A DNA stretch of 36,425 nucleotides from Candidatus Zixiibacteriota bacterium (GCA_040752595.1 JBFMGX010000017.1:1-36425); one strand, 5' to 3'; counted from the stretch's first letter, positions 4,084 through 32,468 are shown. Notes: generated by a model not told the origin, from the sequence alone. Made by a program: numbers and translations.

Positions 4084-4169
4084 ACCCTCACCCCAGCCCT
4101 CTCCCTGAAAGTGAGAGGGGGATCAGATATTTCCCCTCTCCCCTGTGGGGAGAGGGTAGGGTGAGGGGT
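4084..4169. repeat. Palindromic dispersed repeat inside the dsrMKJOP run
   Basis: The left arm reads ACCCTCACCCCAGCCCTCTCCC and the right arm GGGAGAGGGTAGGGTGAGGGG, near-perfect inverted copies, with a smaller inner CCTCTCCC/GGGGAGAGG hairpin. This CCCTCACCC...GGGTGAGGG palindrome is a widespread intergenic repeat in bacterial genomes. It sits between dsrO (stop at 4219) and dsrP (start at 4020). In the transcript it would form a long stem and could lower read-through to dsrP or protect the upstream message. No tract of U follows it, so a classical terminator is not indicated. Confidence 0.8.
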
Positions 4170-4218
4170 TGTCATCAACGCATCGCACATGCCGTAACCC
4201 AAACTGACATGGAAGCCC

Positions 4219-5001: not shown

Positions 5002-5384
5002 GGACGCGGCTCCTCCGGGGCGATGTGGCAGTCCCAGCAGTACGGTTGCACACCCATATAGCTGTGGCATCGGTCGCAGAATCGCTCCTTGCTGGCATGA
5101 CAACCCAGGCAGGTCCGGGTCAGACTCCGCTCGCGCCGCTGACCGTCGGACCCGGTCTCGAACCGCGCCCCCTGCCGCACCACCTGATCACGCCACACGT
5201 TCAGAAGATCCATGTGGTGGGCCGCCATATAGGCGGAATCGCGCACACATTCCCGCGCGTCCGTCGGCCGCTCCAGTTCGGGCGTGTAACCCGCCTTCCC
5301 GGTCGCCAGGTTGTACCAGAACGGAAGTGTGATCACCAGCAGGAAGACCAACAGCCCGGCGATGATCTTTCCGGTGTCATACAT
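4998..5384 (-). CDS. dsrJ: DsrJ, membrane-anchored triheme cytochrome c
   Basis: A 128-residue protein with one N-terminal hydrophobic segment (about residues 7-25, an uncleaved anchor) and exactly three CXXCH haem sites: CLGCH (92-96), CDRCH (103-107) and CWDCH (116-120). A further cysteine, Cys46 in TDARECVRD, matches the position known in DsrJ proteins as the unusual cysteine ligand of one haem. DsrJ is the periplasmic cytochrome of DsrMKJOP. The gene overlaps dsrK by 8 bases and dsrO by 4, so the three are translationally coupled. Confidence 0.97.
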   Translation of the reverse strand: MYDTGKIIAGLLVFLLVITLPFWYNLATGKAGYTPELERPTDARECVRDSAYMAAHHMDLLNVWRDQVVRQGARFETGSDGQRRERSLTRTCLGCHASKERFCDRCHSYMGVQPYCWDCHIAPEEPRP

Positions 5385-6996: not shown

Positions 6997-6999
6997 ACG

Positions 7000-7992: not shown

Positions 7993-8531
7993 AGTTCATC
8001 CCCTGAACGAAGGGCCGCGCCCGCGTTCGCGTTCTCATGCGGCCGGCTCATCCGTTCCAACAGCTTCGCCACCCGCATCTGCGCGGCGCGGGCGACGGCT
8101 TTGTGGATGCGTTCCCGGCAATCCGTGTAGCAGTCAAACGCCCGCAGAGTCAGTCGGTCGATCTCCGACTCGAGCGCCGACAACTCGTCACGGCTCCAGC
8201 CCGATTCCGGCTCTGATACCAACTCCGCGCGGATGGCCTGCTTCAAAAGGATGAACAACCCGGCCGCCTCGGAGGGCGGGCAGTCCTGCACCGCGCGGAT
8301 CTTGATGATATGGTCCAGCGACTCGCCGGTCGCATCCGAAGGCGCACGCCCGATCAGCTCACTCAGGATGACCGCCGTTTCCTGCCGGAACGTGTGTCCG
8401 ATCGGATTGCGAAACTGGTCGCGCTCCGACCGGAGGAAGGCCTGGCTGTCCGGAGGGAACTCGGCGAGAATCAGATCAAGCCACCGCTGGTGGATTCTCT
8501 CCCGTCGTGAATCGAGAATGTCGCGGAGCAT
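7989..8531 (-). CDS. RsbRD N-terminal-domain protein (putative stressosome/RsbR-like regulator)
   Basis: A 180-residue helical protein resembling the RsbRD N-terminal domain. The opening ILDSRRERIHQRWLDLILAEFP, a conserved FRNPIGHTFRQE segment and the acidic helices near residues 80-140 are characteristic. No catalytic motif or DNA-binding domain is seen, and the STAS domain of full RsbR proteins is absent. A small protein of this kind is commonly found just before dsrM in sulfate reducers; its job there is not established. Its stop overlaps the dsrM start by 4 bases, so it is probably made in step with DsrMK. A sensory or assembly role is only inferred. Confidence 0.85.
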   Translation of the reverse strand: MLRDILDSRRERIHQRWLDLILAEFPPDSQAFLRSERDQFRNPIGHTFRQETAVILSELIGRAPSDATGESLDHIIKIRAVQDCPPSEAAGLFILLKQAIRAELVSEPESGWSRDELSALESEIDRLTLRAFDCYTDCRERIHKAVARAAQMRVAKLLERMSRPHENANAGAALRSGDEL

Positions 8532-10927: not shown

Positions 10928-12448
10928 CTATGAACGAGTTGTCAATACATGCGGCTTCAACCCGGCCGCGCCCTTCTGAATTCTACGGGCGCGCGACCGC
11001 TGTTCGCCTTCATGCGCCTGCCGGACACGCGCCGGATCGCCGGCAGCGTCCGCGCCGGACGGCCTTCCCTGACGATACTCCTGCGCGCATCGGACCATGG
11101 CCTCGGCCCAACCGGGCACCCCGAGCGCATGCAGGTGCGTGTAGCAGGCCAGAGTGTGGTTGCTCAGCAACCCGTCTCGCCCGTTGCCCAGCCCGATCCC
11201 CTCGACCATCTTCATACAACCGACCGACTTGGGAAGTCGCTCGGCGGCGGCGGAATAGTGGAACTCATGGCCGCGAATCTCCGTGCCATTCGGGAAGAAT
11301 GGACATGGACGGTCGACACGCACAGCCGTGTAACCGTGCCCCACGGGCGCTGCATGCATGGTCAGGGCGATGTCGAACACGCCGGACATCGGATAGGTCG
11401 TGCCCTGAAACGTGATCGCGCGGGACAGGTAGATGAGTCCGCCGCACTCCGCGTAGATCGGCAACCCCGTCGCCGATGCCCGTCGCACGGCATCCATCAG
11501 CGGACGGTTGCGCGCCAGCCGTTCGGCGTGCACTTCCGGGAATCCCCCGCCGATGTAGAGCGCGTCGATATCGGGCAGAGACGGATCGTGCAACGACGAA
11601 ATCGGCACAAGTTCGGCCCCCTGTGCCGCCAGCTCTTCGAGATTCTCCGGGTAGTAGAACGTGAACACGCTGTCCCGGAAGTACCCGACCCGCGCCCGTC
11701 TCACGGGCTCCGCCGAGACGGGCGGCGCCGGTTCTTCCATGGGTTCGGCGTCTCGGGCACACTCCAACAGACGATCAACATCGAGGTATCTGGCGCCGAT
11801 CTCGTCCAGACAGGACGCCATCTGGTGCGCGGCATGCCCGTGTTCGGCGGGAGTGACCAAACCCAGATGACGACTGGGAAGCAGCGCCTCGGCACAATCC
11901 ACCCGCGGCACGGCCCCCAGCACGGGAACCTCGCAGTACTGCGCGATCGAATCGATGATCGTCTTGCGGTGCCGTTCCCCGGCGACCCGGTTGAGTATGA
12001 CCCCCGCCACACGAAGCCGGGGCTCGAACGAGACACAGCCGTTGATCACGGCCGCCAGCGTGCGCGTCGCCTTGCCGGCATTGACCACCAGCACGACCGG
12101 CGCCCGCAACAGAAGCGCCAACTCGGCCGTGCTGTGGATGCCGGAACTCCCCCTCCCGTCATAGAGACCGCGGTTTCCCTCGATGATCGCGATGTCATGC
12201 CCGCGGGTATGATCGCAGTATGTCTGCCGCACCGAGTCGGAGGGAACGAGGTAGGTATCGAGGTTACGCGCTGTGCCCTGGGAGATCCAAGCCAGCCACG
12301 CCGCATCGATGTAGTCTGGGCCCTTTTTGAACGCCGACACCGACAGCCCGCGTCGCCGCAGAGCGGCAATGACTCCCAGACTGATCAGTGTCTTCCCTGA
12401 ATCTCCGGAAAGCCCGGCAACGACCAGACGCGGAACTTCCCTGGTCAT
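10928..12448 (-). CDS. dsrN: DsrN, siroheme amidase (cobyrinic acid a,c-diamide synthase family)
   Basis: A 506-residue CbiA/CobB-type glutamine-dependent amidase. The N-terminal P-loop-like ATP site is GLSGDSGKT (12-20). The C-terminal glutamine amidotransferase half has the nucleophile Cys335 in YAECGGLIYLS and the HEFHYS histidine near residue 394. In dsr clusters this family amidates siroheme to the siroamide form used by dissimilatory sulfite reductase. An unusual tail of about 45 residues rich in Arg, Gly and Ala follows the catalytic domain. It lies between dsrD and dsrL in the same direction, which supports the dsrN call over a role in cobalamin synthesis. Confidence 0.92.
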   Translation of the reverse strand: MTREVPRLVVAGLSGDSGKTLISLGVIAALRRRGLSVSAFKKGPDYIDAAWLAWISQGTARNLDTYLVPSDSVRQTYCDHTRGHDIAIIEGNRGLYDGRGSSGIHSTAELALLLRAPVVLVVNAGKATRTLAAVINGCVSFEPRLRVAGVILNRVAGERHRKTIIDSIAQYCEVPVLGAVPRVDCAEALLPSRHLGLVTPAEHGHAAHQMASCLDEIGARYLDVDRLLECARDAEPMEEPAPPVSAEPVRRARVGYFRDSVFTFYYPENLEELAAQGAELVPISSLHDPSLPDIDALYIGGGFPEVHAERLARNRPLMDAVRRASATGLPIYAECGGLIYLSRAITFQGTTYPMSGVFDIALTMHAAPVGHGYTAVRVDRPCPFFPNGTEIRGHEFHYSAAAERLPKSVGCMKMVEGIGLGNGRDGLLSNHTLACYTHLHALGVPGWAEAMVRCAQEYRQGRPSGADAAGDPARVRQAHEGEQRSRARRIQKGAAGLKPHVLTTRS

Positions 12449-12473
12449 GTATCACAGACCCCGACCGAATGCA

Positions 12474-12719
12474 TCAATCGTTGGCGGCCCCCTCTTTGTG
12501 TGGAATCTCGATGTAACTCCCGCCGAAGTATGTGTACACGCATTTTCCGGAGTTCATGAGTTCCTTGATGGCCGCTTTGCACAGGTCCTTGTCCACTTCG
12601 TCGCCGTACAACTCGATCATGGCCTTCGTCAGGTCAGTGGCTTTCAACTTCTTGACACCGAACGACTCTTTGACCATGCGGTACATGGCGTCGGCGACTT
12701 CTTCCACTGTCTTGGCCAT
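12474..12719 (-). CDS. dsrD: DsrD, small winged-helix activator of sulfite reductase
   Basis: An 81-residue protein of the DsrD family, a winged-helix fold. Characteristic segments are MAKTVEEVADAMYRMV, the KLKATDLTKAMIELYGDEV region and the closing CVYTYFGGSYIEIPHKEGAAND. DsrD raises DsrAB activity and is found almost only in sulfite and sulfate reducers, so it is a marker for the reductive direction. It follows dsrB by 9 bases and has an AGGAGG site just before its ATG. It probably acts on DsrAB protein rather than DNA. Confidence 0.97.
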   Translation of the reverse strand: MAKTVEEVADAMYRMVKESFGVKKLKATDLTKAMIELYGDEVDKDLCKAAIKELMNSGKCVYTYFGGSYIEIPHKEGAAND

Positions 12720-12728
12720 GAAGACCTC

Positions 12729-13811
12729 CTAAAAAGTCAGATGCGTCGAGCGTTTGAACGTCAGTCCGGCGTGCTTGAAGTCATCGATATGCTCCTTGCG
12801 GAACTCGATGCCCGCCATCCGGAAGAACTTCGGCCAGCCAATGCGCTCGATCCATTCGCCCATGCGTTCGTATTTGCGGGCGTTCTTGGCCCAGAGCTCC
12901 ACCAGGTTGCGCACCGCCTCGGTCACTTCCGGCCAGCGCGGCGGGGTGTTCGGCAGATAAGGGATCGCCAGCTTCGAGAACATCGGCTCATGCCGGGCGT
13001 TGGACACCTTCCCGCCCACCCAGATGGAGACGCCGTCATTCAGCGGATTGTTCAACGGCATCGCCGGGCAGACCGTGTAGCAGTTGGCGCAGAACATGCA
13101 GCGCTCCTCGATCACCTCAACCGTCTCCAAACCGTCGATGACCGTCGGCCGGATGGCCGCCGTCGGACAGGACGCGCTGACGTTGGGAATCTCGCAGGTC
13201 TTTTTCAGCCGGGAATGGTCGACGCGCGGCGGCCGACGGTGAATGCCGAGAATGGCGATATCCGAACAATGCACCGCCCCACACATGTTCAGGCAGCAGG
13301 CCAGGGCGATCCGCAGCTTGCCGGGGAGATCCGTGTGCGTGAAATGGCCGATCAATTCGTCCATGACCGCCTTGACCACTCCCGAGGCGTCGGTGGCGGC
13401 CGAGTGGCAGTGGACCCATCCCTGCGTGTGCACGATGCTGGAAATCGAATTGCCGATGCCGCCGACCGGGTGGCCCAGCTTCGCCAGGTCGGCGATCAAC
13501 GGCTCGATGTGGGCCCGGTCGGTGAGGAGAAACTCGACGTTGTGGCGGCTGGTGAAACGCAGATAGCCGCCGCAGTACTTGTCCGCCAGATCACAGTACA
13601 TGCGGATCTTGTCGATGCTCAGAAGCCGGCTCGACCCGGCCCGGACCGTGAAGAGCTGCGCGCCCGTCTCCGACACGTGCACCATCACACCCGGCTTTAG
13701 GATTTCATGGTATTTCCACTTGCCGTAGTTCTCCTTGATGATCGGAGGCAAGAACTGCTCATAATGAGGAGGCCCGTAATCGGTTCGCCTCTCCGTGGTC
13801 GCTTCAGCCAT
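12729..13811 (-). CDS. dsrB: DsrB, dissimilatory sulfite reductase beta subunit
   Basis: A 360-residue subunit of the reductive DsrAB enzyme. The siroheme/[4Fe-4S] cysteines lie in ACCLNMCGAVHC (C172, C173, C177, C182). The inserted ferredoxin domain has C238, C241, C244 and C248 (CMFCANCYTVCP). The ATG at 13811 is chosen because a GAGGTG site lies seven bases upstream and MAEATTERRTDYGPP starts like other DsrB proteins. An in-frame GTG at 13856 overlaps the dsrA stop (GTGA) and would add 15 residues; it cannot be excluded. With DsrA it forms the alpha2beta2 enzyme that reduces sulfite and loads sulfur onto DsrC. Confidence 0.98.
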   Translation of the reverse strand: MAEATTERRTDYGPPHYEQFLPPIIKENYGKWKYHEILKPGVMVHVSETGAQLFTVRAGSSRLLSIDKIRMYCDLADKYCGGYLRFTSRHNVEFLLTDRAHIEPLIADLAKLGHPVGGIGNSISSIVHTQGWVHCHSAATDASGVVKAVMDELIGHFTHTDLPGKLRIALACCLNMCGAVHCSDIAILGIHRRPPRVDHSRLKKTCEIPNVSASCPTAAIRPTVIDGLETVEVIEERCMFCANCYTVCPAMPLNNPLNDGVSIWVGGKVSNARHEPMFSKLAIPYLPNTPPRWPEVTEAVRNLVELWAKNARKYERMGEWIERIGWPKFFRMAGIEFRKEHIDDFKHAGLTFKRSTHLTF

Positions 13812-20048: not shown

Positions 20049-20885
20049 ATGCAGGAGCTCGAACGGTTCAAAGAAGAGATCCTAAAGGACTATCCCCGGC
20101 TGTCGGCCCAGGACGCGTTCACATTCGCCTGCCATCCCGGCGTACCCTGTTTCAACCGGTGCTGCGCCGATGTGAACATCTTTCTGACACCGTATGACGT
20201 CATACGATTGAAACGGGCATTGGGGATCTCGTCCCAAGAGCTGTTGGACAGATACACGGCGATGCCGTTCGATCGCAACCTGAAATACCCGGTGTTGATG
20301 CTGCAAATGAATGCGGATGAAACGAAGAGTTGTCCCTTCGTCGGGCCGGACGGCTGTCGGGTGTATGAGGATCGCCCCTGGTCCTGCCGCATGTACCCGC
20401 TCGGCTTGGCATCCCCGAAGGCGTCCGACAAACAACCGCCGGGAGACTTCTACTTCCTCCTCAAGGAGGCGGTGTGCGAGGGATTCCGCGAGGCACGACG
20501 GCAGACGGTGAGCGAATGGCTGGCGGATCAGGGCATTCCCCAGTACAACGACATGGGCGAGCAGTTCAAGGAGTTGGCTCTCCATCCGTTCTTCGAAAAC
20601 GGCGACAACCTGACCCCGCAGAAGATCGAGATGTTCTTCCTGGTCTGCTACAACATCGACGAGTTCCGCGCGTTCGTGTTCAAGACCAGCTTCCTCGACA
20701 AGTTTTGCGTGGACGATGACACGCAAGACCGCATCCGCCAAGACGACGTCGAATTGTTGAAGTTCGGATACCGCTGGCTCCGGTTTGCCCTGTTCGGCGA
20801 ACCAACCATGACCATCCGAAGCGAGGTTCTGGAGGAGAAGAAGAAGGAACTGCAGATGCGACAGAAGCTTCCCGGCGCCCCGTAG
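20049..20885 (+). CDS. YkgJ-family cysteine-cluster protein
   Basis: A 278-residue protein of the zinc/iron-chelating YkgJ (CxxxCxxCC) family. The family cysteines are C28, C34, C38, C39 (CHPGVPCFNRCC) and then C95, C103 and C113 (SCPFVGPDGCRVYEDRPWSC, followed by RMYP). A long C-terminal helical region of about 150 residues is extra to the core domain. The ATG at 20049 follows AGAGGA and is preferred over an upstream start. The family is thought to bind a metal or Fe-S centre but its reaction is not established. Position between a zinc ribbon and redox genes suggests metal or cluster handling. Confidence 0.88.
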   Translation: MQELERFKEEILKDYPRLSAQDAFTFACHPGVPCFNRCCADVNIFLTPYDVIRLKRALGISSQELLDRYTAMPFDRNLKYPVLMLQMNADETKSCPFVGPDGCRVYEDRPWSCRMYPLGLASPKASDKQPPGDFYFLLKEAVCEGFREARRQTVSEWLADQGIPQYNDMGEQFKELALHPFFENGDNLTPQKIEMFFLVCYNIDEFRAFVFKTSFLDKFCVDDDTQDRIRQDDVELLKFGYRWLRFALFGEPTMTIRSEVLEEKKKELQMRQKLPGAP

Positions 20886-21041: not shown

Positions 21042-21614
21042 ATGGCAGCAAGAGGTGGGGAATTGGCAGACGAATTGACGATCGGGGCGCACACGCTGCG
21101 GCTGACGGTGGGCGACATCGCGGACATGGAGATTGACGCGTTCGTCTACTATGCACGGCATGATCTGGTTCTGGGGTCGGGGATCGGCACCGCGATCAGC
21201 GTGCGCGGCGGCCCGACGATTCAAGAGGAACTGGAGAAATTGGCTCCGATAAAAACAACGGAGGCGGTCGTTACGGCCGCCGGCGGCATGAAGGCCGGCC
21301 GGATCATTCACGCGGTCGGACCCCGCTTCCAGGAGGAGGACCTGGAGGCGAAGCTCGAGATGACCGTTCTCAACTGCCTCAAGAAAGCCGATGAAAGCGG
21401 GATCAGGACCGTCGCCTTTCCCGCCATGGGCGCGGGATTTTACGGCGTGCCGCTCGACGTCAGCGCCCGTGTCATGTTCTCGACGATCCGGGACTACCTT
21501 GCGGGGACGACCGGAATCGGGGACGTCATCATCTGTCTGGGTGACAACCGGGAACACGAGGTCTTTCGGCGTCGGATGTCGGAGTTGAACCAAGCAACGG
21601 GAGTCACAGGATGA
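21042..21614 (+). CDS. Macrodomain protein (ADP-ribose-binding family)
   Basis: A 190-residue single macrodomain. The signature parts are LTVGDIADMEIDAFVYYA, the substrate loop GSGIGTAISVRGG, VTAAGGMKAGRIIHAVGP and the second loop FPAMGAGFYGVP. Macrodomains bind ADP-ribose or related nucleotides and some remove ADP-ribose from proteins. Its stop overlaps the start of the next gene (ATGA at 21611), so it is translationally coupled to the NarI-like cytochrome b. That coupling points to a link between NAD+-derived signals and the redox module, by inference. GGGGA lies five bases before the ATG. Confidence 0.92.
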   Translation: MAARGGELADELTIGAHTLRLTVGDIADMEIDAFVYYARHDLVLGSGIGTAISVRGGPTIQEELEKLAPIKTTEAVVTAAGGMKAGRIIHAVGPRFQEEDLEAKLEMTVLNCLKKADESGIRTVAFPAMGAGFYGVPLDVSARVMFSTIRDYLAGTTGIGDVIICLGDNREHEVFRRRMSELNQATGVTG

Positions 21615-22294
21615 GCGACGCACTGCACTTCGCCGAACACCGTTTGCAGGAGGGGGCACTGCTGTTCATGGCCCTGGTCTACACCACGCGTCTGATTTGG
21701 CTTCTCCGCCACAAGGCCGGCCGGGAACGACAACCGAAGACGGGCCTGCCGGGAACCACTCCGGCCAAAGGCGTTCTCTATTCCTGGGCCAATATCGCGA
21801 TGCCCTGGGCAATGGAAAGCACGCGCACCAAACCCCTTCTCTATGCCCAGTTCGTGATCTTCCACCTGGGCGTGGTCGCCGCCATCCTACTGTCGTTCGT
21901 CATTCCCTACAATCCGTCTCTGCTGGATTGGCCGGGTGTGACGCCGGCGTTTCAGATTGCCATCGGCGCGGCGTGTCTCGTCGGCCTGCTGCGCATCATC
22001 CGGAGGGTCGGCGACAAGTACATACGGGCCATCAGCAGCCCCGACGACTATTTCTCGCTCGTCCTTCTGACCGTGTGGTTCTTCTTCGCCGCGTTGGCGG
22101 TGGCCAATGATCCAACCTCCGGCGAGGGCATCCTGTTGACGTACTTCTACATGACCGCCTTCTTCCTCGTGTACGTGCCGTTCAGCAAGATCTCACACTA
22201 CCTGTACTATCCGTTCGCCCGCTATTACCTCGGGAAGACCCTGGGATACCGCGGTGTCTACCCGATCAGACACGTGCCGGCCGGGCACGAATAG
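21611..22294 (+). CDS. NarI/DsrM-like membrane cytochrome b subunit (module 1)
   Basis: A 227-residue membrane protein with about five helices resembling the nitrate reductase gamma/DsrM fold. Histidines in FVIFHLGVV and in FSKISHYLYYPF fall where haem b ligands are placed in the family. It lacks the longer soluble tail of the canonical DsrM at 7000. The next gene encodes a DsrK-like protein, giving a second DsrMK-type pair. The likely role is electron exchange between menaquinone and the Fe-S partner. TmcC/HmeC-type relatives are an alternative name; only a tree can decide. Confidence 0.85.
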   Translation: MSDALHFAEHRLQEGALLFMALVYTTRLIWLLRHKAGRERQPKTGLPGTTPAKGVLYSWANIAMPWAMESTRTKPLLYAQFVIFHLGVVAAILLSFVIPYNPSLLDWPGVTPAFQIAIGAACLVGLLRIIRRVGDKYIRAISSPDDYFSLVLLTVWFFFAALAVANDPTSGEGILLTYFYMTAFFLVYVPFSKISHYLYYPFARYYLGKTLGYRGVYPIRHVPAGHE

Positions 22295-22326
22295 ACGGAC
22301 GAACCTTCCGCCGGATGGAGCACGAG

Positions 22327-24081
22327 ATGGACACCCGTATGACAACGACCCGATCCCACAAGGCCCAGAAGGTGCTGGAGCGCTTCGAAAAGAAGCTCAG
22401 CCGGCAGATCGTCAGTTCCCTGGTGGCCTGTGTGCATTGCGGCAACTGCACGAAGGCCTGCCATTATGTCCTGGCCAACCCCGACGATCCGACCTATGCG
22501 CCCGCCTACAAGGCCGACCGCATCCGGCGCATTTTCAAACGGCATTTCGATTGGACCGGGCGCCTCTTTCCCTGGTGGGTCCATGCCCGGAGCGTCTACA
22601 CCGATGAGGACCTGGAGGAGCTCAAGGACGTCGTCTTCGGCAAATGCACCAATTGCCGCCGCTGCTCCATCAACTGCCCCATGGGCGTGGATTTCGCGGT
22701 ATTCAACCGCATGGCCCGTGGTCTGCTCGTCTCGGTCGGCGTGATGCCCGAAGGCGTCGCCGTCGTCAGCAAGGACCAATGGGAGATCGGCAACCAGATG
22801 GGCGTCCTCAAAGAGGAGTATATCGAGACGCTCGAATGGCTCGCCGAGGAGCTGCAGGCGGAGTTGGACGATCCGCGGGCCACGATCCCGATCGACGTGC
22901 CGGACTGCGACGTCGTCTATTCCATCAACCCCCGCGAGGTCAAGTACGACCCGCGCACGATTTCCGATGCGGCCAAGATCTTCTACGCCGCTGCCGAGCG
23001 CTGGACGATGCCGTCGGAGGGCTGGGACATGACCAACTTCGGCCTGTTCTCCGGCGACGACGAGCTGGGCGGCGCTGTCGCTCGCCGACTCTATGAGAAA
23101 GTCGAGGCGCTGCGCGGCCGCATGCTGGTCATCTCCGAATGCGGCCACGGTTATCGCTCGACGCGATGCGAGGGTCCCAACTGGGCGGCGCGTGACATCA
23201 AGGCATTTGAGATGGAGAGCTCCGTGATCACGATGCTCCGCTACATTAGAGAAGGGCGGATCACGGTCGACAAGTCCCGCAATCAGACGCCGGTGACCTT
23301 CCATGACTCCTGCAACAACGCCCGCAGTTGCGGGCTGTTCGAGGAGCCGCGCGAGTTGTTGCAGTTGGTCTGCACGGATTTCCGCGAGATGTATCCCAAC
23401 CGCGCCGAGAACTACTGCTGCACCGGCGGCGGCGGGGCAATGTCCATGTCGGAATACACGCCGCGCCGCCTGAAGTCGGCCAAAATCAAGGCCGACCAAC
23501 TGAAGTCAACCGGGGCGGAGATCGTCGTCACCTCATGCCACAACTGCGTCGACGGCCTGACCGACCTGATCCGGCATTACAAACTCGGGATACAGGTGAC
23601 ACAGTTGGTCAATCTGGTCGCCAACGCTTTGGTCATCGAGCCGCGGAAGGTGGAGGTCGTCGTGGCGCCGCCGGTCGCCGAAGCGGCGCCGCTGGCCGGC
23701 TACCGAATCCTCGTGGCCGATGATGAACCCGATTTCGCCGCCTTCGTCTCCACTGTCCTGCAGGACAACGGCGCCACCGTCTTCGAGGCGTACGATGGTG
23801 ATGAGACGATCGACCTGGCCCGCCGCGAGAAGCCCGATCTGATCACCCTCGATATCAACATGCCGGGGCGCTCCGGTGACGAGGTCTTCGAGTTCATGCG
23901 CCATGACCATGACTTGCGGTCGATCAGAGTCTGCATCATCACCGGCAAGCCGGAGTTGCGCCGGTTGATCTATGAGCGTCCCGTCCCGCCGCCCGAAGGG
24001 TATGTGGACAAGCCCGTCAGCGACGAAGCGCTTCTGCTCAACGTCAAGAAGATTCTGGAGGTCACGACGGAGAAGGGATGA
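22327..24081 (+). CDS. DsrK/HdrD-like iron-sulfur protein fused to a response-regulator receiver domain
   Basis: A 584-residue fusion. Residues 30-120 hold two ferredoxin sites (C35/38/41/45 and C107/110/113/117). CCG-type cysteine regions follow: C272 (SECGHGYR), C329, C364-C365 (NYCCTGGGG) and C404/C407 (CHNC). After a short linker rich in Ala, Pro and Val, residues 459-584 form a complete receiver domain with acidic pocket D465-D466, phospho-acceptor D509 (ITLDINMPG) and K562 (YVDKP). The ATG at 22327 has GGAG six bases upstream. It follows the NarI-like gene and precedes a histidine kinase by 17 bases. Control of DsrK-type electron transfer by phosphorylation, or the reverse, is inferred. 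Confidence 0.93.
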   Translation: MDTRMTTTRSHKAQKVLERFEKKLSRQIVSSLVACVHCGNCTKACHYVLANPDDPTYAPAYKADRIRRIFKRHFDWTGRLFPWWVHARSVYTDEDLEELKDVVFGKCTNCRRCSINCPMGVDFAVFNRMARGLLVSVGVMPEGVAVVSKDQWEIGNQMGVLKEEYIETLEWLAEELQAELDDPRATIPIDVPDCDVVYSINPREVKYDPRTISDAAKIFYAAAERWTMPSEGWDMTNFGLFSGDDELGGAVARRLYEKVEALRGRMLVISECGHGYRSTRCEGPNWAARDIKAFEMESSVITMLRYIREGRITVDKSRNQTPVTFHDSCNNARSCGLFEEPRELLQLVCTDFREMYPNRAENYCCTGGGGAMSMSEYTPRRLKSAKIKADQLKSTGAEIVVTSCHNCVDGLTDLIRHYKLGIQVTQLVNLVANALVIEPRKVEVVVAPPVAEAAPLAGYRILVADDEPDFAAFVSTVLQDNGATVFEAYDGDETIDLARREKPDLITLDINMPGRSGDEVFEFMRHDHDLRSIRVCIITGKPELRRLIYERPVPPPEGYVDKPVSDEALLLNVKKILEVTTEKG

Positions 24082-24098
24082 TGGAAGGAGGTCATTCG

Positions 24099-25550
24099 AT
24101 GACGGATGCCTACCGGCGTTACTTCGATTCCATGCCCTGTTTTCTGACCGTGCAGGACCGAAATCTCCGCGTCATCGATGCCAACGACCGCTTCCGCCGC
24201 AACTTCGGTGATTTCGAGGGGCGCTATTGCTATCAAGTGTACAAACAGCGGCCGGAGAAATGCGAGGGTTGTCCCGTCGAGCGGACGTTCCGCGACGGCG
24301 AATCTCACCGCAGCGAGGAACTGGTCCGGACGATCCACGGCGATGAGGTCTGGGTCATTGTCTACTCGACGCCGATCCGGAATGAGTCCGGAGAGATCGT
24401 CTCCGTCATGGAGATGTCGACCGACATCACCGATATCAAGCTCCTCCACAGACACCTGCGCGAGAGCCAGGAACGGCACCGCCTCCTCTTTGAGGAAGTT
24501 CCCTGTTATATCTCAATCCAGGACAAGGACCTCAATATCGTCGCCGCCAACCGCATGCACCGGGAGGCCTTCGGCACCGGCTATGGGCGCAAGTGCTACG
24601 AAGTCTACAAGCATCGTGCCAAGGCCTGCACGCCCTGTCCCGTGCAGGAGACCTTTGCCGACGGTCGGGTGCGCAGCCACGAGGAGGTGGTCACGTCGCA
24701 GGACAACACCAAGATCAATGTCCTTGTGGTCACCTCGCCGTTGCGCAATGCCGACGGTGACATCGAGCACGTCATCGAGATGAGCTCGGACATCACGGCC
24801 ATCCGGCAGCTTCAGGACAAACTGACCTCGGTCGGGCTTTTGATCAGCACAGTCTCCCATGGGATCAAGGGACTGCTGAACAGTCTGGACGGCGGCATCT
24901 ACCTGATCAACTCCGGCCTGAAGAAGAACGACCGTGAGCGCGTGGACCGCGGCTGGGACATGACGCAGCGCAATCTTCACCGCATCCGCTCTCTGGTGAT
25001 GGACATCCTCTATTATGCGAAAGACCGCGAGCCGTACTGGGAAACGGTGTCGGGCCGGGACGTCCTGCGCGATGTGATCCAGTCGATGCACGAACGCGCC
25101 GGGGAGTCGCAGATCGAACTTGTCGCCGACGGCTCTGCCACCGGTGAATTCCAGGGGGATCCACAGATGATCCGTTCCCTGCTGGTCAACCTGATCGAGA
25201 ACGCCTTCGATGCCTGCCGCATCGACAAGAAGAAGCCGGAGCATCATGTCGCCATCGGTCTGGAGGAAGATCCGGAAACCGTCCGGTTCACGGTCACGGA
25301 CAACGGCATCGGCATGGACCGGGAAACACGCGAGAAGGCATTCAGTTTGTTCTTCTCATCCAAAGGCGCCGGCGGGACAGGCCTCGGCCTGTTCATCGCC
25401 AACAAGATCGCCCAAGCGCACGGCGGCAAGGTCACGCTGACCTCAGAGGAAGGCCAGGGGAGCTGCCTGACTGTTGCCCTGCCGCGCCTGCGACCACAGA
25501 CCGACGCGCCAGGGACCCGGTCAGATGACGGATTGGGGCCGCCGAAGTGA
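24099..25550 (+). CDS. Histidine kinase with two four-cysteine PAS domains
   Basis: A 483-residue soluble kinase. Two PAS domains (about 1-115 and 122-235) each hold four cysteines at the same spacing: C14, C44, C55, C58 and C136, C166, C177, C180 (C-X29-C-X10-C-X2-C; CYxVYK...C..CPV). The phospho-acceptor is His254 in VSHGIKGLL, a variant H-box without the usual HE/D-x-P pattern. The ATPase part has N364/N368 (NLIENAF), DNGIGM (401-406) and GTGLGLFIA. The start at 24099 has a perfect AGGAGG seven bases upstream. No membrane segment is seen. The cysteines suggest an Fe-S or thiol redox sensor; this is inference. It sits between the two DsrMK-like modules. Confidence 0.93.
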   Translation: MTDAYRRYFDSMPCFLTVQDRNLRVIDANDRFRRNFGDFEGRYCYQVYKQRPEKCEGCPVERTFRDGESHRSEELVRTIHGDEVWVIVYSTPIRNESGEIVSVMEMSTDITDIKLLHRHLRESQERHRLLFEEVPCYISIQDKDLNIVAANRMHREAFGTGYGRKCYEVYKHRAKACTPCPVQETFADGRVRSHEEVVTSQDNTKINVLVVTSPLRNADGDIEHVIEMSSDITAIRQLQDKLTSVGLLISTVSHGIKGLLNSLDGGIYLINSGLKKNDRERVDRGWDMTQRNLHRIRSLVMDILYYAKDREPYWETVSGRDVLRDVIQSMHERAGESQIELVADGSATGEFQGDPQMIRSLLVNLIENAFDACRIDKKKPEHHVAIGLEEDPETVRFTVTDNGIGMDRETREKAFSLFFSSKGAGGTGLGLFIANKIAQAHGGKVTLTSEEGQGSCLTVALPRLRPQTDAPGTRSDDGLGPPK

Positions 25551-25599
25551 GTATTCCCGGACGGTCGTCTTCCCGCACGCAACTGAGTCGGAGGTTTGA

Positions 25600-26532
25600 A
25601 TGAGCGGACTGCAAGTGATCAGCTACCTGTCCATCGCCGTCTTTCCGGTGCTCCTGATCGCCAAGATGGTCAGAATCGCGCGGATGCCGGTCCACCTACG
25701 GTGGGACCTCTATCCGATACCGCACGAAAAGGGCAAGAGTGCATACGGCGGCTCCTACTTCGAGGAGGTCGACTGGTGGACCAAACCGAGAGTACGGTCC
25801 TTGATCAGTGAACTCCGGGAAATGGCCAAGGAGATCGTCTTCATACATTCGGTGTACAAGCACAACCGCCCGCTGTGGGTGTTTTCCTTCCCCTTCCACA
25901 TCGGGATGTACTGCCTGATCGGTCTGATGGCTCTGCTGGTCATCGGTGCCATTATGGGCGCCGCCGGGATCGTGGTGTCGGCCGACTCGGCCAACGGCTT
26001 CGCCGTCCTGGTGCAGCATCTCACGCGGATTCTGGGCGCGGCCGGTTGGATTTTGAGCGTCGTCGGCGTCCTCGGCCTGTTGTTCAGTCGCTTGCTCAAC
26101 CGCGAGCTGCGCGTGGCCACGATCCTCAGCGACTACGTCAACCTGCTGGCCCTCCTGGCCGTGTTTGCAACCGGACTTGTGTCATGGATCACCGTCGACC
26201 CGTCCTACGCAATCATGCGCGGGTTTGTGCGGTCCCTGATCACCTTCCAGCCGGTGACGGGACTTCCGGCGGCAACGGCGACGCACCTGTGGCTGATGGC
26301 GGGGTTGCTCTTCTACTTCCCGTTCACCCACATGACCCACATGGTCGGCAAGTACTTCACCTATCACAAAGTCCGCTGGGAGGACGAGCCGAACATCCGG
26401 GGTACGCGGATCGAGCAGGCCGTTCAGGCGGCCTTGGGATACAAGATCACTTGGTCCGCGCCGCATATAAAGACAGGGAGCACTTGGGCCGACGCCGCGA
26501 TGACGACCGGGGAGGTCAAGAACCATGAGTAA
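25600..26532 (+). CDS. NarI/DsrM-like membrane cytochrome b subunit (module 2)
   Basis: A 310-residue membrane protein with a first helix (about 5-27), a cytoplasmic loop of about 65 residues, then about five helices of the NarI type. Candidate haem ligands are His in FSFPFHIGMYC and in HLWLMAGLL / FTHMTHMVGKYF. A C-terminal soluble tail ends at the overlapping DsrK-like gene (8-base overlap with 26525). GGAGG precedes the ATG. The size and layout are closer to the canonical DsrM than module 1. It likely feeds the DsrK-like partner with quinol electrons or drains them; direction is not known. Confidence 0.88.
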   Translation: MSGLQVISYLSIAVFPVLLIAKMVRIARMPVHLRWDLYPIPHEKGKSAYGGSYFEEVDWWTKPRVRSLISELREMAKEIVFIHSVYKHNRPLWVFSFPFHIGMYCLIGLMALLVIGAIMGAAGIVVSADSANGFAVLVQHLTRILGAAGWILSVVGVLGLLFSRLLNRELRVATILSDYVNLLALLAVFATGLVSWITVDPSYAIMRGFVRSLITFQPVTGLPAATATHLWLMAGLLFYFPFTHMTHMVGKYFTYHKVRWEDEPNIRGTRIEQAVQAALGYKITWSAPHIKTGSTWADAAMTTGEVKNHE

Positions 26533-28138
26533 AAGGCGGACAACCTTGAAGGACTTCTCCCACAAACCGGGACAGCTTGTGGAACTGGATCGCAGGCAGT
26601 TTCTCCCTTTGCCCCCTCCCTATGACAAGTGGGACACGGAGCCGGAGATCAAACCCCTCTCGGAAGAGCGACAGCGGCAGTTGGAATGCGACTTGGACGG
26701 CATCAGCGCCTTCAAATTCCCCCGCCCCCAGTCCGAGGAGGAAAAACGCCGGCTGGTGGAGCAATTCCTCGCCGGCCTCAAGAAGCTCTTTGAGAGAGAG
26801 AACAACTGGACCTTCCAGCAGGCGCTCTTCTTGACCATGGAGTACTGCGCCCGCTGCCAGACGTGCGCCACGGCCTGCCCCATCTATGCGGAATCGGGTA
26901 AGATGGACATCTATCGGCCGACGTTCCGCTCCGACATCGTGCGCCGCCTCTACAAGAAGTACGTCAAGGCGGGCGGGAAGTTCTTCGCGGTGGTTTCCGG
27001 CAACGACATCGACGTGACGTGGACCATGGTCGCCCGCCTGATGGAGTTATCCTACCGGTGCACGCTCTGCCGCCGTTGCGCCCAGTCCTGCCCCATCGGT
27101 GTCGACAACGGTCTTGTCACCCACGAGCTGCGCAAGATCTTCAGCCAGGAAATGGGCGTCGCGGTCGAAGCCCTGCACACGAAGGGATCGGTCCTGCAAC
27201 TCGAGGCCGGGTCTTCGACCGGGATGACGCCCGCCGCCTTTCTCGACAACGTCGAGTTCATGGAAGACGAAGTGAAAGAGCGCACCGGCCTGTCGTTCAA
27301 ATGGCCGATGGACAAGGCCGGCGCCGACATCCTTCTGATTCACAACGCCGGAGAATATCTGGCCTGGCCGGAGAATCCCGAGGCGTTTGCCATCATTCTC
27401 GAGGCCGCCGGCATCAGCTACACTCTCTCCAGCGATATCGTGGCCTACGACGGCGTCAACTACGGCGTGTGGTACGATGATGTTCAACTGGCCAAGGTGG
27501 CGCTCAAGCACATGGAGACCGCGCGCAAACTGGGCGTCAAAAAGGTCGTCATCGGCGAATGCGGCCACGCCCACAAGGCGCTGACCGTCATCGCCGACCG
27601 CGTCCTGGCCGGCGACCTGAACATTCCCCGCGAGAGCTCCATGACGCTCCTGCGCGACATCATCACCAGCGGGCGGATCAAAGTGGATCCCTCGCGCAAC
27701 GACGACATCACCACCACGCTGCACGACCCCTGTAATCTCGTGCGGCTCATGGGCGTGGTGGAGCCGCAGCGCGAGGTCCTCCGCGCGGTCAGCAATCACT
27801 TCCGGGAGATGACGCCGCACGGCGTCGACAACTACTGCTGCGGCGGCGGCAGCGGCTTTGCCATCACGCAGGATCTGAACTTCCCGGATTTCCGCGAGAT
27901 CGTCTCGGGTCGGGCCAAGCTGCGCCAGATCCTGAACGTGTTCCAGGACATCATCGGTCCGGAGCACAAGAAGTATGTCTGCGCCCCCTGCTCCAACTGC
28001 AAGGGCGCCATCCGCGACATGTTCGCCGCCTATGGTCTGTTCGAGCGCTGCAATATCCTGTACGGTGGTCTGGTCGAGCTGGTCGTGAATGCGATGCCGG
28101 AGATCGAGCGCCCATTCCTGGAGTGGGATTGGCACTGA
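26525..28138 (+). CDS. DsrK/HdrD-like iron-sulfur protein (module 2)
   Basis: A 537-residue protein with the full DsrK layout. An N-terminal region of 100 residues is followed by ferredoxin sites C108/111/114/118 (CARCQTCATAC) and C179/182/185/189 (CTLCRRCAQSC). The CCG regions are GECGHAHK, DPCNLVR, NYCCGGGSGF and CAPCSNCKG, so the residues for a catalytic cluster are complete. It overlaps the DsrM-like gene by 8 bases and is followed by a receiver-only protein 20 bases later. No DsrJOP-like genes accompany it. It is a paralogue of the canonical DsrK (5377), possibly using a different thiol/disulfide partner. Confidence 0.92.
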   Translation: MSKRRTTLKDFSHKPGQLVELDRRQFLPLPPPYDKWDTEPEIKPLSEERQRQLECDLDGISAFKFPRPQSEEEKRRLVEQFLAGLKKLFERENNWTFQQALFLTMEYCARCQTCATACPIYAESGKMDIYRPTFRSDIVRRLYKKYVKAGGKFFAVVSGNDIDVTWTMVARLMELSYRCTLCRRCAQSCPIGVDNGLVTHELRKIFSQEMGVAVEALHTKGSVLQLEAGSSTGMTPAAFLDNVEFMEDEVKERTGLSFKWPMDKAGADILLIHNAGEYLAWPENPEAFAIILEAAGISYTLSSDIVAYDGVNYGVWYDDVQLAKVALKHMETARKLGVKKVVIGECGHAHKALTVIADRVLAGDLNIPRESSMTLLRDIITSGRIKVDPSRNDDITTTLHDPCNLVRLMGVVEPQREVLRAVSNHFREMTPHGVDNYCCGGGSGFAITQDLNFPDFREIVSGRAKLRQILNVFQDIIGPEHKKYVCAPCSNCKGAIRDMFAAYGLFERCNILYGGLVELVVNAMPEIERPFLEWDWH

Positions 28139-28158
28139 TCGACGGGGAGGAATGCGCC

Positions 28159-28533
28159 GTGTCCAAGAAGATCATGATCGTTGACGATGAAGCGGATCCG
28201 CGGACCTATCTGGAGGCGTTGTTTCAGGACAGCGGTTACACGACGCTGACCGTCGCCGACGGCGATGAGGCCTGGGACAAAGTCGCGGAGTTCCAGCCCG
28301 ACCTGATCACGCTCGACATCATCATGGCCCGCGAAACCGGCGTGAAGTTCTACCGCCGCCTGTGCAAAGACCCGATGCTGTCGAAGATCCCGGTGATCAT
28401 CTGCAGCGGCGTGACCCAGTACAAAGACCTCTTCAGCCGCGATCATCACACGATGCCGAAGCCGTTGGCCTTTGTCGACAAACCGATCGACAAGACGTCG
28501 CTGCTTGAACTCGTGCGCACGGCGATCGGCTGA
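28159..28533 (+). CDS. Single-domain response regulator (receiver only)
   Basis: A 124-residue CheY-like receiver with acidic pair D9-D10, phospho-acceptor D53 (TLDIIM) and K108 (FVDKPI). The GTG at 28159 is chosen for its GGGGAGG site eight bases upstream; another GTG at 28123 overlaps the DsrK-like gene. No output domain is present. It lies directly behind the second DsrMK-like pair and resembles the receiver fused to the module 1 DsrK-like protein (shared DLITLDI and VDKP). It may play the same part in trans for module 2; this is inference. Confidence 0.93.
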   Translation: MSKKIMIVDDEADPRTYLEALFQDSGYTTLTVADGDEAWDKVAEFQPDLITLDIIMARETGVKFYRRLCKDPMLSKIPVIICSGVTQYKDLFSRDHHTMPKPLAFVDKPIDKTSLLELVRTAIG

Positions 28534-29151: not shown

Positions 29152-29504
29152 GGGCTGCTCCCTCGTTGCGGGCGGCTTGGTCTCAGAGTGTTGCGCTTCC
29201 CAGGGATGACGGCGCCACCACAGACCGTGGACGATTCGGACACGGGGCATGTGAAACCAATAACGTGCTGTGGGATGAGCAAGAACATCCATCCGCCCTC
29301 AAGGTACGGACGGACGATGTCCGTCCCTTGTAGTCCGTCAGAGAGTTGCCCGCAAGATCCTCCCGACCACGTGAGACGCCAACGCTGTCCGGCACCCGGC
29401 TGCCTCCGTCGCATCTGTCACAATCGCCCCCTGGATACAGAAGGCACTTGATTCTTGGGCCGTTGCCGCTTTCATGCGGGGGGAACAAACAGTCTGGGGA
29501 CATC
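29152..29504. other. Gene-free gap with a perfect 8-bp hairpin
   Basis: A 353-base gap between the porin remnant and the next plus-strand gene. At 29308-29326 GGACGGAC and GTCCGTCC pair around the loop GAT, flanked by CAAGG/CTTG that extends the symmetry. No T-run follows. No gene or clear promoter is seen, though transcription of the next gene group may begin here. Confidence 0.5.
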
Positions 29505-30038
29505 ATGCCCGTCGTGAGCATCTTCAGCGGAACGTACTGCCTCGACGAAGAGGTGACCGCCGGGGTCGCACGGAACCTGGACCATCGCCTGATCGCAGAC
29601 GAGGAGGTGATCGCCCAGGCGGCCGGCCACTGTGATCTTCCGGAGGAAAAGCTGCGCCAGGCGATGCACGGCCAGCTCTCGATCTTCAGCCGGTTCACCC
29701 GCGAGAAGGAGCGGGCGGTCGCGTACTTGCGGGAAGCGATCGCCGAGTTGGCGCTCGCCGACAACGTCGTCCACCGGGGTTTTGCCGGCCATCTTCTCCC
29801 CGGCTACATCTCCCATGTGTTGAAGGTGTGCCTCGTGGCCGGGCAGGAGTTCCGCATCGCGCGGGCCGCCGGAGACGCCGGTCAGGCCAAGGGAAAGGTT
29901 AAACGCCGGATCCAGCAGGAGGATCTGGCGCGCAGCCAATGGACGGCCTTTCTCTTCCAACGGGGCCCGTGGGACAGACGGCTCTACGACATCAAGATCC
30001 CATGCACACGACCCCGGTGGTCGATGCCGTCAATATGA
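29505..30038 (+). CDS. Cytidylate-kinase-like protein, 5' part of a frameshifted gene
   Basis: A 177-residue frame of the cytidylate kinase-like family seen in sulfate reducers: MPVVSIFSGTY at the nucleotide site, IADEEVIAQAA, FAGHLLPGYISHVLKV and the closing SQWTAFLF...WDRRLYDIKIP. The usual P-loop is not clear, so kinase activity is doubtful. True similarity ends at about 29999; the last 12 or so codons are out of frame. One extra base in the C-run at 29999-30001 would join it to the next frame (DIKI-P-MHTTPVVDAV), exactly where the family sequence continues. GGGGA precedes the ATG. It may be a real mutation, an assembly error or a programmed shift. Confidence 0.8.
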   Translation: MPVVSIFSGTYCLDEEVTAGVARNLDHRLIADEEVIAQAAGHCDLPEEKLRQAMHGQLSIFSRFTREKERAVAYLREAIAELALADNVVHRGFAGHLLPGYISHVLKVCLVAGQEFRIARAAGDAGQAKGKVKRRIQQEDLARSQWTAFLFQRGPWDRRLYDIKIPCTRPRWSMPSI

Positions 30039-30739
30039 TCTGCGACAACGCCCGCGCCACGATCGTGCAGTCGACGCCGGCGTCTCGGAAGGCGATGGAA
30101 GACTTCCTCCTGGCGGCCCGCGTCAACAGGGCGCTGGTGGAGGAGGGGCATGATGTGGCGGTGACCAGCCGGGACGGCGACGTCACCGTGGCCATCAACA
30201 AGTATGTGCTGCGCCTGGATCATCTGCGCGAACAGTTCCGCAAGGTCGGCGCCCGGGTCGCGGGGGTGAAGAGTGTTCAGGTACGAGAGCAACCGGATCT
30301 CCGAGCGAGTCTTGTCATGAGCAACCAGGAATTCGACCTGCCCGCCAAGGTCCTGCTGATCGACGACGAGAAGGAGTTTGTCCAGACCTTGTCCGAGCGG
30401 CTGCAGATGCGGGATATCGGGACGGCGGTGGTCTTCGATGGCGAGCAGGCCCTCTCGGTCATCGACAAGGAGGAGCCGGAGGTCATGATCCTCGACCTGC
30501 GCATGCCGGGCATCGATGGGATCGAGGTTCTCCGGCGCGTCAAGCAGACCCGTCCGCAAGTGGAGATCATCATCCTGACCGGCCATGGCAGCGAGAAGGA
30601 CCGTGAGTTGGCGATGAGCCTGGGCGCGTTCGCCTATCTCGAGAAGCCGGTCGATATTCAAAATCTGACCAACGTGCTTCGGGACGCCTACGAGAGAATC
30701 AAGCGAAACCAAAAGCTCCGCGAGAGTCCCGGCGCCTGA
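30002..30739 (+). CDS. 3' part of frameshifted gene: kinase-like C-terminus, BON-like domain and receiver domain
   Basis: From ATG 30002 the frame encodes the rest of the cytidylate-kinase-like fold (VVDAVNMICDNA), a BON-like segment (FLLAARVNRALVEEG...VAVTSRDGDVTVAIN) and, from about 30346, a receiver domain with IDDEKEF, phospho-acceptor in MILDLRMPG and YLEKPVD. An ATG at 30317 (MSNQEFDLPAKVLL) could start the receiver alone, as in related gene sets where it is a separate protein. Read in full, 29505-30739 would be one kinase-like/BON/receiver fusion. There is no DNA-binding domain. Confidence 0.8.
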   Translation: MHTTPVVDAVNMICDNARATIVQSTPASRKAMEDFLLAARVNRALVEEGHDVAVTSRDGDVTVAINKYVLRLDHLREQFRKVGARVAGVKSVQVREQPDLRASLVMSNQEFDLPAKVLLIDDEKEFVQTLSERLQMRDIGTAVVFDGEQALSVIDKEEPEVMILDLRMPGIDGIEVLRRVKQTRPQVEIIILTGHGSEKDRELAMSLGAFAYLEKPVDIQNLTNVLRDAYERIKRNQKLRESPGA

Positions 30740-30878: not shown

Positions 30879-31727
30879 GTGGCCATCGCGCCGCTCGGCA
30901 TCATCACCGCCGTCAGCTACAATCAGTACAAAGCGGCGTTTCGCGAGGGACTGATTCAGCCCGCGCAGCGGCTGACCTCCTCGATGAAACGATCGATCGA
31001 GTTCTTCCTCGAGGAGCGTCGCGCGGCGATGAAGTTCATCGTCCGGGATCGGTCATTCGCCGAGTTGGCGGACCAACAGCAGATGACGCTGATCTTCCGC
31101 AATATGCGCGAGGCCTTCGGCGGCATCATCGATCTGGGTCTGATCGGCTCGGCGGGTGTGCAGCGCAGCTACGCCGGTCCCTACGAGCTGCGCGGCGTCA
31201 ACTATGCCCACGAGAATTGGTTCCGGGAGGTCCGTCTCCGGGACGTCTACGTCAGTGACGTGTTCCTGGGTTACCGCGCCTTCCCTCACTTTGTCATCGC
31301 CGTGCGGCACGAAGACCGGGATGGCGGCTTCTACGTGCTGCGGGCCACACTGGACCTCAAGATTTTGGAGCGTCAGATTGCCGCCCTCGACCTCGGCCCA
31401 TCCAGCGACGCGTTCCTGATCAACCACAACGGCGTCCTGCAGACCAGCTCCGGATCCGGGTTTCACGTGCTGGAGTCCTACCTCCGGGTACCCGACTATA
31501 CCGAAGGGGCGAAAGTCAGCGAGGAACGGGACGAGGGCGGGAATCCCTACATCTTGGGTTACGCCTATATTGAATCGTCTCCCTTCATCTTCGTCATGCT
31601 GAAGAAGCCCGACGCGCTCCGGCAGGGGTGGGGAGCGATGCGAAACGAATTGCTCGGGTTTCTGGCCACCAGCATCGTCCTGATTCTACTGCTCGTGGTC
31701 GGCACGTCGTCGTACATGGTGGCGTAG
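30879..31727 (+). CDS. Membrane sensor histidine kinase, N-terminal sensor part (ends at in-frame TAG)
   Basis: The sensor half of a kinase: a first membrane helix that begins before the GTG at 30879 (the same frame upstream reads RRLWWYTVLLTSFVAIAP), a dCache-like periplasmic domain (about 30930-31610; NYAHENWFREV, VRHEDRDGGFYVLRATLD, FLINHNGVLQTSSG) and a second helix (LLGFLATSIVLILLLVVG). It stops at TAG 31725-31727, right where the coiled linker to the kinase core should begin. The frame continues unbroken after the TAG. No good start codon is found in frame before 30879, so the N-terminus is unresolved. Confidence 0.8.
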   Translation: MAIAPLGIITAVSYNQYKAAFREGLIQPAQRLTSSMKRSIEFFLEERRAAMKFIVRDRSFAELADQQQMTLIFRNMREAFGGIIDLGLIGSAGVQRSYAGPYELRGVNYAHENWFREVRLRDVYVSDVFLGYRAFPHFVIAVRHEDRDGGFYVLRATLDLKILERQIAALDLGPSSDAFLINHNGVLQTSSGSGFHVLESYLRVPDYTEGAKVSEERDEGGNPYILGYAYIESSPFIFVMLKKPDALRQGWGAMRNELLGFLATSIVLILLLVVGTSSYMVA

Positions 31728-31805
31728 CTGCAAGAGTCGGACCGACGCCAGGCCGCGGCCGTCCACCAACTCGAATACTCCAGCAAGCTGGCGTCCCTGG
31801 GTCGG

Positions 31806-32468
31806 TTGGGGGCCGGCGTCGCCCATGAGATCAACAACCCCCTGGCGATCATCGCCGAGAAGGCCGGTCTGTTGAAGGACATCCTCTCGGCGGACCAGTC
31901 CCAGCCCGATTGGAACAAGTTTCTGAAGCACGTCGACGCCATTCTCTATTCCGTGGAGCGATGCAGCAAGATCACCCGTCAGTTGTTGGGGTTCGCCAAG
32001 CGCATCGATGTGCAAAGGAGGCCGGTCGACCTCAAGGCCCTGATCACGGAGGTCATCGGCTTCTTGGCCCGTGAGGCCGAATACCGCAGCATTACGATCC
32101 CCGTGACCGCCCTATCTGACATCCCCACCATCGAGAGCGACCCCGGGCAGTTGCAGCAGGTCTTCCTGAACATCATCACCAATGCGCTGGAGGCGGTTGA
32201 TGTCGGAGGGCGGATCGCGATCGCCTTGGAGGCGAACATGTCCGGCCGCGTGGCGGTGACCGTGTCCGACAACGGTCCGGGTATCCCGGCGGACGTTCTT
32301 CCCCACATCTTCGAGCCGTTCTTCAGCACCAGGAAAGAACATGGAACCGGGTTGGGGCTGTCCATCACGTATGGGATCGTCGAGAAGCTGGGGGGACAGC
32401 TGGACGTCCGAAGCGAGCTGGGGCGCGGGACGAGTTTCACGGTGACGCTGCCGATCCTGATGCCTTGA
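31806..32468 (+). CDS. Histidine kinase core, C-terminal part of the same interrupted gene
   Basis: In the same frame as the sensor half, the sequence after the TAG reads QESDRRQAAAVHQLEYSSKLASLG and then the H-box GVAHEINNPLAIIAEKAG, with the phospho-acceptor His. The ATPase motifs are NIITNALEAV, SDNGPGIP, FEPFFSTRK and GTGLGLSITYGIV, all intact. The only start offered is a TTG at 31806 that would begin inside the H-box helix, so free translation is doubtful. The catalytic core looks undecayed, which argues for a recent mutation, a sequencing error or read-through of the TAG rather than an old pseudogene. Confidence 0.8.
   Translation: MGAGVAHEINNPLAIIAEKAGLLKDILSADQSQPDWNKFLKHVDAILYSVERCSKITRQLLGFAKRIDVQRRPVDLKALITEVIGFLAREAEYRSITIPVTALSDIPTIESDPGQLQQVFLNIITNALEAVDVGGRIAIALEANMSGRVAVTVSDNGPGIPADVLPHIFEPFFSTRKEHGTGLGLSITYGIVEKLGGQLDVRSELGRGTSFTVTLPILMP

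Follow-up and report, generated by a model that had tools for sequence, protein, structure and literature searches.

A receiver-fused iron-sulfur subunit within a conserved, putatively redox-signalling gene cassette of Dsr-pathway bacteria

Can a two-component system act by phosphorylation on the electron-transfer machinery of sulfite respiration? The question is raised by a gene cluster on the plus strand of a 36,425-nucleotide stretch of DNA (the window) from a Candidatus Zixiibacteriota bacterium (GCA_040752595.1, JBFMGX010000017.1:1-36425). The cluster opens with a macrodomain protein of 190 residues (21042..21614; Pfam Macro, 93 bits) and continues with M1, a NarI/HmcE/TmcC-like membrane cytochrome b subunit of 227 residues (21611..22294), K1R, an iron-sulfur (FeS) and CCG-motif protein ending in a receiver domain (22315..24081; receiver at residues 464-582), and a cytoplasmic PAS-PAS-HATPase histidine kinase (24078..25550; HATPase_c, 87 bits). 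A second electron-transfer pair, M2-K2, and a receiver-only protein, R2, complete the row; the seven genes are co-directional, with intergenic gaps of -4, 20, -4, 49, -8, and -16 nt, and thus fit a single operon. A sequence-only reading of this DNA had described two DsrMK-like modules wired into two-component signalling. All of the genes that it named are present on this strand where it placed them, the macrodomain gene falling just outside the interval that it delimited, while its starts at 22327, 24099, and 28159 are in-frame alternatives to those used here (22315, 24078, and 28123).

Recurrence of the cassette and its link to the Dsr pathway

The order macrodomain-M1-K1R-kinase(-receiver) recurs in 80 loci from more than ten phyla and is a fixed core cassette, far beyond chance; the earlier impression of a combined redox and two-component unit is thereby upheld, and confinement to one genome, which would have spoken against it, did not materialise. 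A search restricted to one genome per species retrieved 154 K1R relatives; the 80 best matches are 64-82% identical to the K1R of the window and come from records named Zixibacteria, Acidobacteria, Calditrichaeota, Deltaproteobacteria, Gemmatimonadota, Planctomycetota, Ignavibacteria, Myxococcota, Elusimicrobia, and Poribacteria, among others. M1 precedes K1R nearly always, the kinase follows K1R in nearly all loci with room for it, and the macrodomain gene, found upstream of M1 in 75/75 loci with enough upstream DNA (L016-L095), is the first gene and a core member of the cassette. In 58 of the 70 loci with room, the kinase is succeeded by a standalone receiver, a count that takes in some same-species loci from a second collection; among standalone receivers, the phosphoacceptor D and also the K are conserved throughout (80/80).

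The host genomes are tied to the Dsr pathway. Among 50 cassette genomes tested, 45 encode DsrA above its cut-off and the other five encode AprA, such that every one has at least one of the two; DsrA in the absence of AprA, the case in eight, suggests that the common factor is reduction of sulfite rather than of sulfate. Of 97 Zixibacteria genomes with a completeness of 85% or more, 23 encode both K1R and DsrA, three encode K1R without DsrA, 11 encode DsrA without K1R, and 60 have neither (Fisher p 4e-11, ignoring phylogeny). Genes of the dsr, apr, or sat type lie in the fetched flanks of 13/80 loci, against one or two expected by a rough estimate, and in five loci (L021, L041, L052, L077, and L095) the cassette sits within a dsr operon. 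Three of these, from Syntrophaceae (L041, L052, and L077), read dsrA-dsrB-dsrN-macro-M1-K1R-HK-R-M2-K2-dsrM-dsrK (HK, histidine kinase; R, receiver), followed by dsrO-dsrP where the contig reaches that far, and in the Zixibacteria locus L021 the cassette stands between dsrABN-dsrL and dsrMKOP. A close K1R relative was found in just 13 of 296 sampled Desulfobacterota; classical sulfate reducers are mostly without K1R.

Unfused forms also exist, and some Desulfobacterota carry the same module with the receiver as a separate gene. M1, K1, receiver, and kinase are four separate genes in L118, whereas L113, L114, and L116 (L115, of the same type, is cut short) present M1-K1-Usp-HEAT-receiver-kinase (Usp, universal stress protein), with M2-K2 nearby on the opposite strand. 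Fused and unfused units stand side by side on opposite strands in L117 (G170:C168:34000-51980), each with a nearby Rrf2-type gene; the fused unit is M1-K1R-kinase, and the unfused unit is M-K-receiver-HAMP kinase with a second type of K. Because the unfused L113-L116 form nests among fused rows in the tree of K proteins, a fission or a second fusion occurred. The receiver tree, built on few columns and with many weak forks, gathers the fused receivers in one clade (20/21, support 99) within a family that includes the standalone cassette receivers, and unites R2 with those of L113-L116 (support 91). Hmc-like operons of Desulfobacterota (L140, L141, and L150) are likewise bordered by kinases and receivers of the cassette type, and the tie between redox subunits and two-component proteins is therefore wider than the cassette. 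One such region, L139-L140 (G217:C15:1-38000), holds an unfused K1 cluster, M2-K2, and an Hmc-like operon within ~22 kb, the last having a kinase and a receiver of its own in addition to a 17-CxxCH cytochrome.

Module 1, its kinase, and the macrodomain protein

Given that only two histidines of M1 are conserved, H85 and H196 (79/80 and 80/80, respectively), this subunit probably holds one heme b; its HmcE and TmcC scores (54.2 and 50.6 bits) are both below cut-off. K1R possesses two 4Fe-4S motifs (C39/42/45/49 and C111/114/117/121) and a single complete CCG motif (C333, C368-C369, and C408-C411), and the full set of these cysteines is invariant. Its profile scores are 325.7 bits for HmcF (cut-off 750), 307.5 for TmcB (cut-off 735), and 237.7 for DsrK (cut-off 400), and in the K tree, a quick one with some long branches, it forms its own clade, distinct from both DsrK and K2, with HmcF/TmcB as its sister group. 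The scores and the tree reject module 1 as a copy of DsrMK and point to M1-K1R as an electron-transfer pair related to HmcEF/TmcCB. The AlphaFold model of K1R (mean pLDDT, the predicted local distance difference test, 88.3) has as its best solved fold in Foldseek the quinone-linked oxidoreductase EtfD (9ojn; TMq 0.54, 19% identity), and also matches the receivers DivK, PhoB, and RR468; the linker preceding the receiver (residues 448-455) is modelled with low confidence, as a flexible segment. Elsewhere in the same genome, L002 (G000:C4:82504-83724) contains another K1R-like FeS/CCG gene, 34% identical and with one in-frame TGA, which may denote selenocysteine or a frameshift.

The receiver of K1R retains the phospho-site residues D469, D470, D513, T543, and K566, the DD, D, T/S, and K set of two-component receivers, and its best receiver model is the DVU0259-type NF045717 (68.5 bits, cut-off 160). 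All five catalytic phosphoacceptor residues are kept in 82/82 fused receivers, and the possibility that these are decayed pseudo-receivers was accordingly rejected.

The kinase has two PAS domains and no recognised membrane or periplasmic domain (AlphaFold mean pLDDT 86.1). Six of its PAS cysteines are invariant in 64/64 aligned rows: C51, C62, and C65 in the first domain and C173, C184, and C187 in the second, where C143 is kept in 63/64. The four-cysteine PAS domain of the sequence-only reading thus holds for the second domain, while the first has three invariant cysteines and a fourth in 38/64 rows. As in two-component kinases, a HATPase domain is joined to a phosphorylatable histidine, H261, invariant in the 64 rows and set in the H-box SHGIKGL in the window and SHG[IL]KG in most rows. 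HisKA kinases normally use an acidic residue after the histidine and Asn/Thr four residues on; the cassette kinase has neither.

The macrodomain protein, whose closest solved structure is TTHA0132 (PDB 2dx6), retains the Gly-rich nucleotide loops, and throughout the alignment [FY]YA stands where hydrolases have the catalytic-type motif NAAN, on which count it does not qualify as an ADP-ribosyl hydrolase of that type. It would probably bind an ADP-ribose-like nucleotide, not hydrolysing it. Sensing of adenosine 5'-phosphosulfate was considered and not favoured, as the cassette genomes G037, G045, and G061 have dsrA and no aprA. Directly upstream of the macrodomain gene, 22 loci carry a regulator that has a MerR/excisionase-like helix-turn-helix, is rich in cysteine in its middle part, and weakly resembles a receiver at its C-terminus (L019:2454-3236 and relatives).

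Control of electron flow and its alternatives

The reading favoured here, tentatively and at somewhat less than an even chance, is that phosphorylation of the K1R receiver by the kinase gates electron flow through M1-K1R. Electrons would move via M1-K1 between menaquinone and a sulfite-pathway partner in the cytoplasm, a thiol/disulfide or trisulfide carrier such as DsrC or one like it; the kinase would sense the redox or sulfur state via its PAS cysteines and phosphorylate the K1R receiver, thereby altering this flow; and R2 or its counterparts, as standalone members of this receiver family, would be served by the same kinase and relay the signal to other places. The support comprises the fixed order, the intact receivers, the invariant PAS cysteines, the presence of DsrA or AprA in 50/50 genomes, the existence of both fused and unfused forms, the co-occurrence of K1R with dsrA, the cassettes inside dsr operons, and the EtfD-like fold. 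Judged from these sequence features, the cassette appears to be a conserved redox-signalling unit of Dsr-pathway bacteria. The fuller proposal, in which a respiratory enzyme of the sulfite pathway is switched directly by two-component phosphorylation, gating electrons between quinone and a sulfur carrier, while the macrodomain adds a nucleotide (NAD-state) input, is doubtful at present.

Several points weigh against gating. The predicted flexibility of the linker between the CCG region and the receiver means that a fixed or allosteric contact cannot be claimed. Likewise, since the H-box (SHGIKG) is without the usual acidic residue, kinase activity is not assured, and the enzyme may differ from ordinary kinases in autophosphorylation or as a phosphatase. 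DsrC enters as the partner by analogy from DsrMK. Finally, the cassette is not essential for sulfite reduction, as it is absent from 11/34 dsrA-positive Zixibacteria and from most Desulfobacterota.

The arrangement could also run in the opposite direction, with M1-K1 mainly sensing the quinone/thiol redox state and a docked fused receiver setting the output of the kinase, such that little electron flux would pass and the phosphoryl signal, addressed to standalone receivers and nearby transcription factors, would be the product. The frequency of standalone receivers after the kinase (58/70) agrees with this, and it is kept open by the Rrf2 regulator, the MerR-helix-turn-helix/cysteine/receiver-like protein, or the sigma-54 activator with PAS that precedes the cassette in 15-22 loci each; nevertheless, the invariant FeS/CCG cysteine set is as expected of an enzyme rather than a sensor, and no transcription factor gene is present in the operon of the window, which leaves such a reporter role rather unlikely.

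An enzyme with a fused receiver is usually regulated by it, which, together with the strict retention of the phospho-site in the fused receivers, makes it improbable that the kinase and receivers act instead on how the electron-transfer genes are transcribed or assembled, with the fusion only a device for localisation or stability. Such control would have precedent insofar as receivers near Hmc/Tmc are known and rrf1/rrf2 are cited as regulating hmc expression (Keon 1997, via PMC10924467), and the kinases and receivers flanking the Hmc-like operons of L140, L141, and L150 are of the same type. That unrelated electron-transfer and signalling genes merely happen to be neighbours, as might be supposed in a window that is a dense Zixibacteria dsr/apr/sat island, is refuted almost outright by the fusion and by the same order in 80 loci, mostly without dsr genes in the fetched flanks.

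The second module, surroundings, and significance

M2, a DsrM-like membrane subunit of 310 residues (25600..26532, plus strand; NCBIfam DsrM 43.1 bits, cut-off 300; Pfam Nitrate_red_gam 42 bits), and K2, a DsrK-like FeS/CCG subunit of DsrK2 type (26525..28138, plus strand; NCBIfam DsrK 333.6 bits, cut-off 400), are followed by R2, of DVU0259 type (28123..28533, plus strand; NCBIfam NF045717, its best receiver model, 112.4 bits, cut-off 160), which keeps all phospho-site residues. In the K tree, K2 forms its own supported clade beside DsrK, joined by K2 proteins of Acidobacteria (L035, L047, L088, and L090). Among the 97 Zixibacteria, K2 and dsrA occur together in 31, K2 alone in six, dsrA alone in three, and neither in 57, placing K2 in 31 of 34 dsrA-positive genomes. 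This co-occurrence is as expected of the dsrM2K2 paralogues described from sulfate/sulfite reducers (Hausmann 2018, PMC6018796), and M2-K2 is probably such a paralogue. A receiver accompanies 10/30 Zixibacteria M2-K2 loci, and M2-K2 lies near the cassette in about 17/80; its placement in the window is therefore a feature of particular lineages, built around a core that is itself conserved. Of the two DsrMK-like modules proposed earlier, each with its own receiver and both wired together, what survives is the conserved module-1 core, nearer to Hmc/Tmc by scores and tree and with its receiver fused, and a DsrM2K2-like second module; a DsrMK identity for module 1, an own receiver as a rule for module 2, and a general linkage of the two do not.

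By the profile and tree placements made here, the cassette is distinct from DsrMK, Hmc, and Tmc. With the Hmc and Tmc complexes of Desulfovibrio (HmcEF and TmcCB, with Rrf1/Rrf2) it shares NarI-like and FeS/CCG subunits, and in some lineages receivers, universal stress proteins, and kinases adjoin those complexes as they do the cassette; K1R nevertheless scores below half of the HmcF and TmcB cut-offs in a separate clade, and the cassette adds the macrodomain and the receiver-fused CCG subunit and is without an NrfD-type subunit or periplasmic cytochrome c. No multiheme periplasmic cytochrome c was found among the operon genes of the window, in contrast to Tmc/Hmc loci such as L140-L150. M2 and K2 resemble DsrM and DsrK, and the cassette adjoins dsrMK(OP) in several loci, yet neither K1R nor K2 reaches the DsrK cut-off of 400 bits or falls in the DsrK clade of DsrMK(JOP). 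EtfD is a single fused membrane protein that works with ETF. This ETF:menaquinone oxidoreductase (PDB 9ojn) has a fold like that of K1R and yet no receiver.

The window itself carries on its minus strand dsrP, dsrO, dsrK, dsrM, a dsrL-like oxidoreductase gene, dsrN, dsrB, dsrA, aprA, aprB, and sat, mostly above curated cut-offs, and the plus-strand genes bearing the cassette lie head to head with sat. True dsrMKOP is separate (2863-7992), its DsrK (5377-6996) scoring 737.1 bits. Directly upstream of dsrM, as also adjoining dsrM in L021, L062, and L148, is an RsbRD_N-domain protein (7992-8531, minus strand; Pfam PF14361), perhaps DsrT. An 81-codon winged-helix-like open reading frame occupies the dsrD position after dsrB (12430-12760, minus strand) and gives no match to Pfam DsrD, searches for which may overlook a divergent Zixibacteria form; Pfam DsrD was found in 9/62 genomes, but because it misses this frame, dsrD was rejected as a marker of pathway direction, its absence being uninformative. 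Upstream of the macrodomain gene, a CxxCxxCC-domain gene (20049..20885, plus strand; Pfam CxxCxxCC, 37 bits) is possibly cotranscribed with the cassette, although it is rarely kept with it (only L017, L044, and L067). Four one-mismatch sigma-54 promoter sites were found against 2.3 expected, none directly upstream in the operon direction. Downstream, a further signalling cluster includes a cytidylate-kinase-like protein overlapping a receiver protein (29502-30739), the receivers there not being close to those of the cassette, and a dCache-type histidine kinase gene (30879-32468) interrupted by an in-frame TAG at 31725, explicable as a disrupted gene, as two separate genes, or as a fault in the assembly.

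In the literature searched, limited to open-licence papers, no description of the cassette was found, nor any DsrK or heterodisulfide reductase joined with a receiver domain, and it is apparently undescribed, as had been supposed. The main text of the dsrM2K2 study (Hausmann 2018, PMC6018796) makes no mention of a response regulator, two-component system, or macrodomain, and those of Neukirchen 2023 and Diao 2023 make none of response regulators, histidine kinases, or macrodomains. The titles of the 80 cassette records denote metagenome-assembled or uncultured organisms, and that all of them appear to be metagenome-assembled may be why the cassette had gone undescribed.

The cassette bears on how electron flow is tuned in Dsr-pathway organisms and on the cytoplasmic partners of Hmc-, Tmc-, and DsrMK-like modules, that of Hmc and Tmc being described as unknown in PMC4215793. 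With the CCG subunit bearing a fused receiver and a kinase encoded alongside, a direct test of phosphorylation control is possible, and if gating is true, a categorically new mechanism may be at hand. For dissimilatory sulfur metabolism beyond the cultured sulfate reducers, the cassette provides a practical marker and a candidate regulator, and in the Dsr-pathway bacteria that carry it phosphorylation may control respiration itself.

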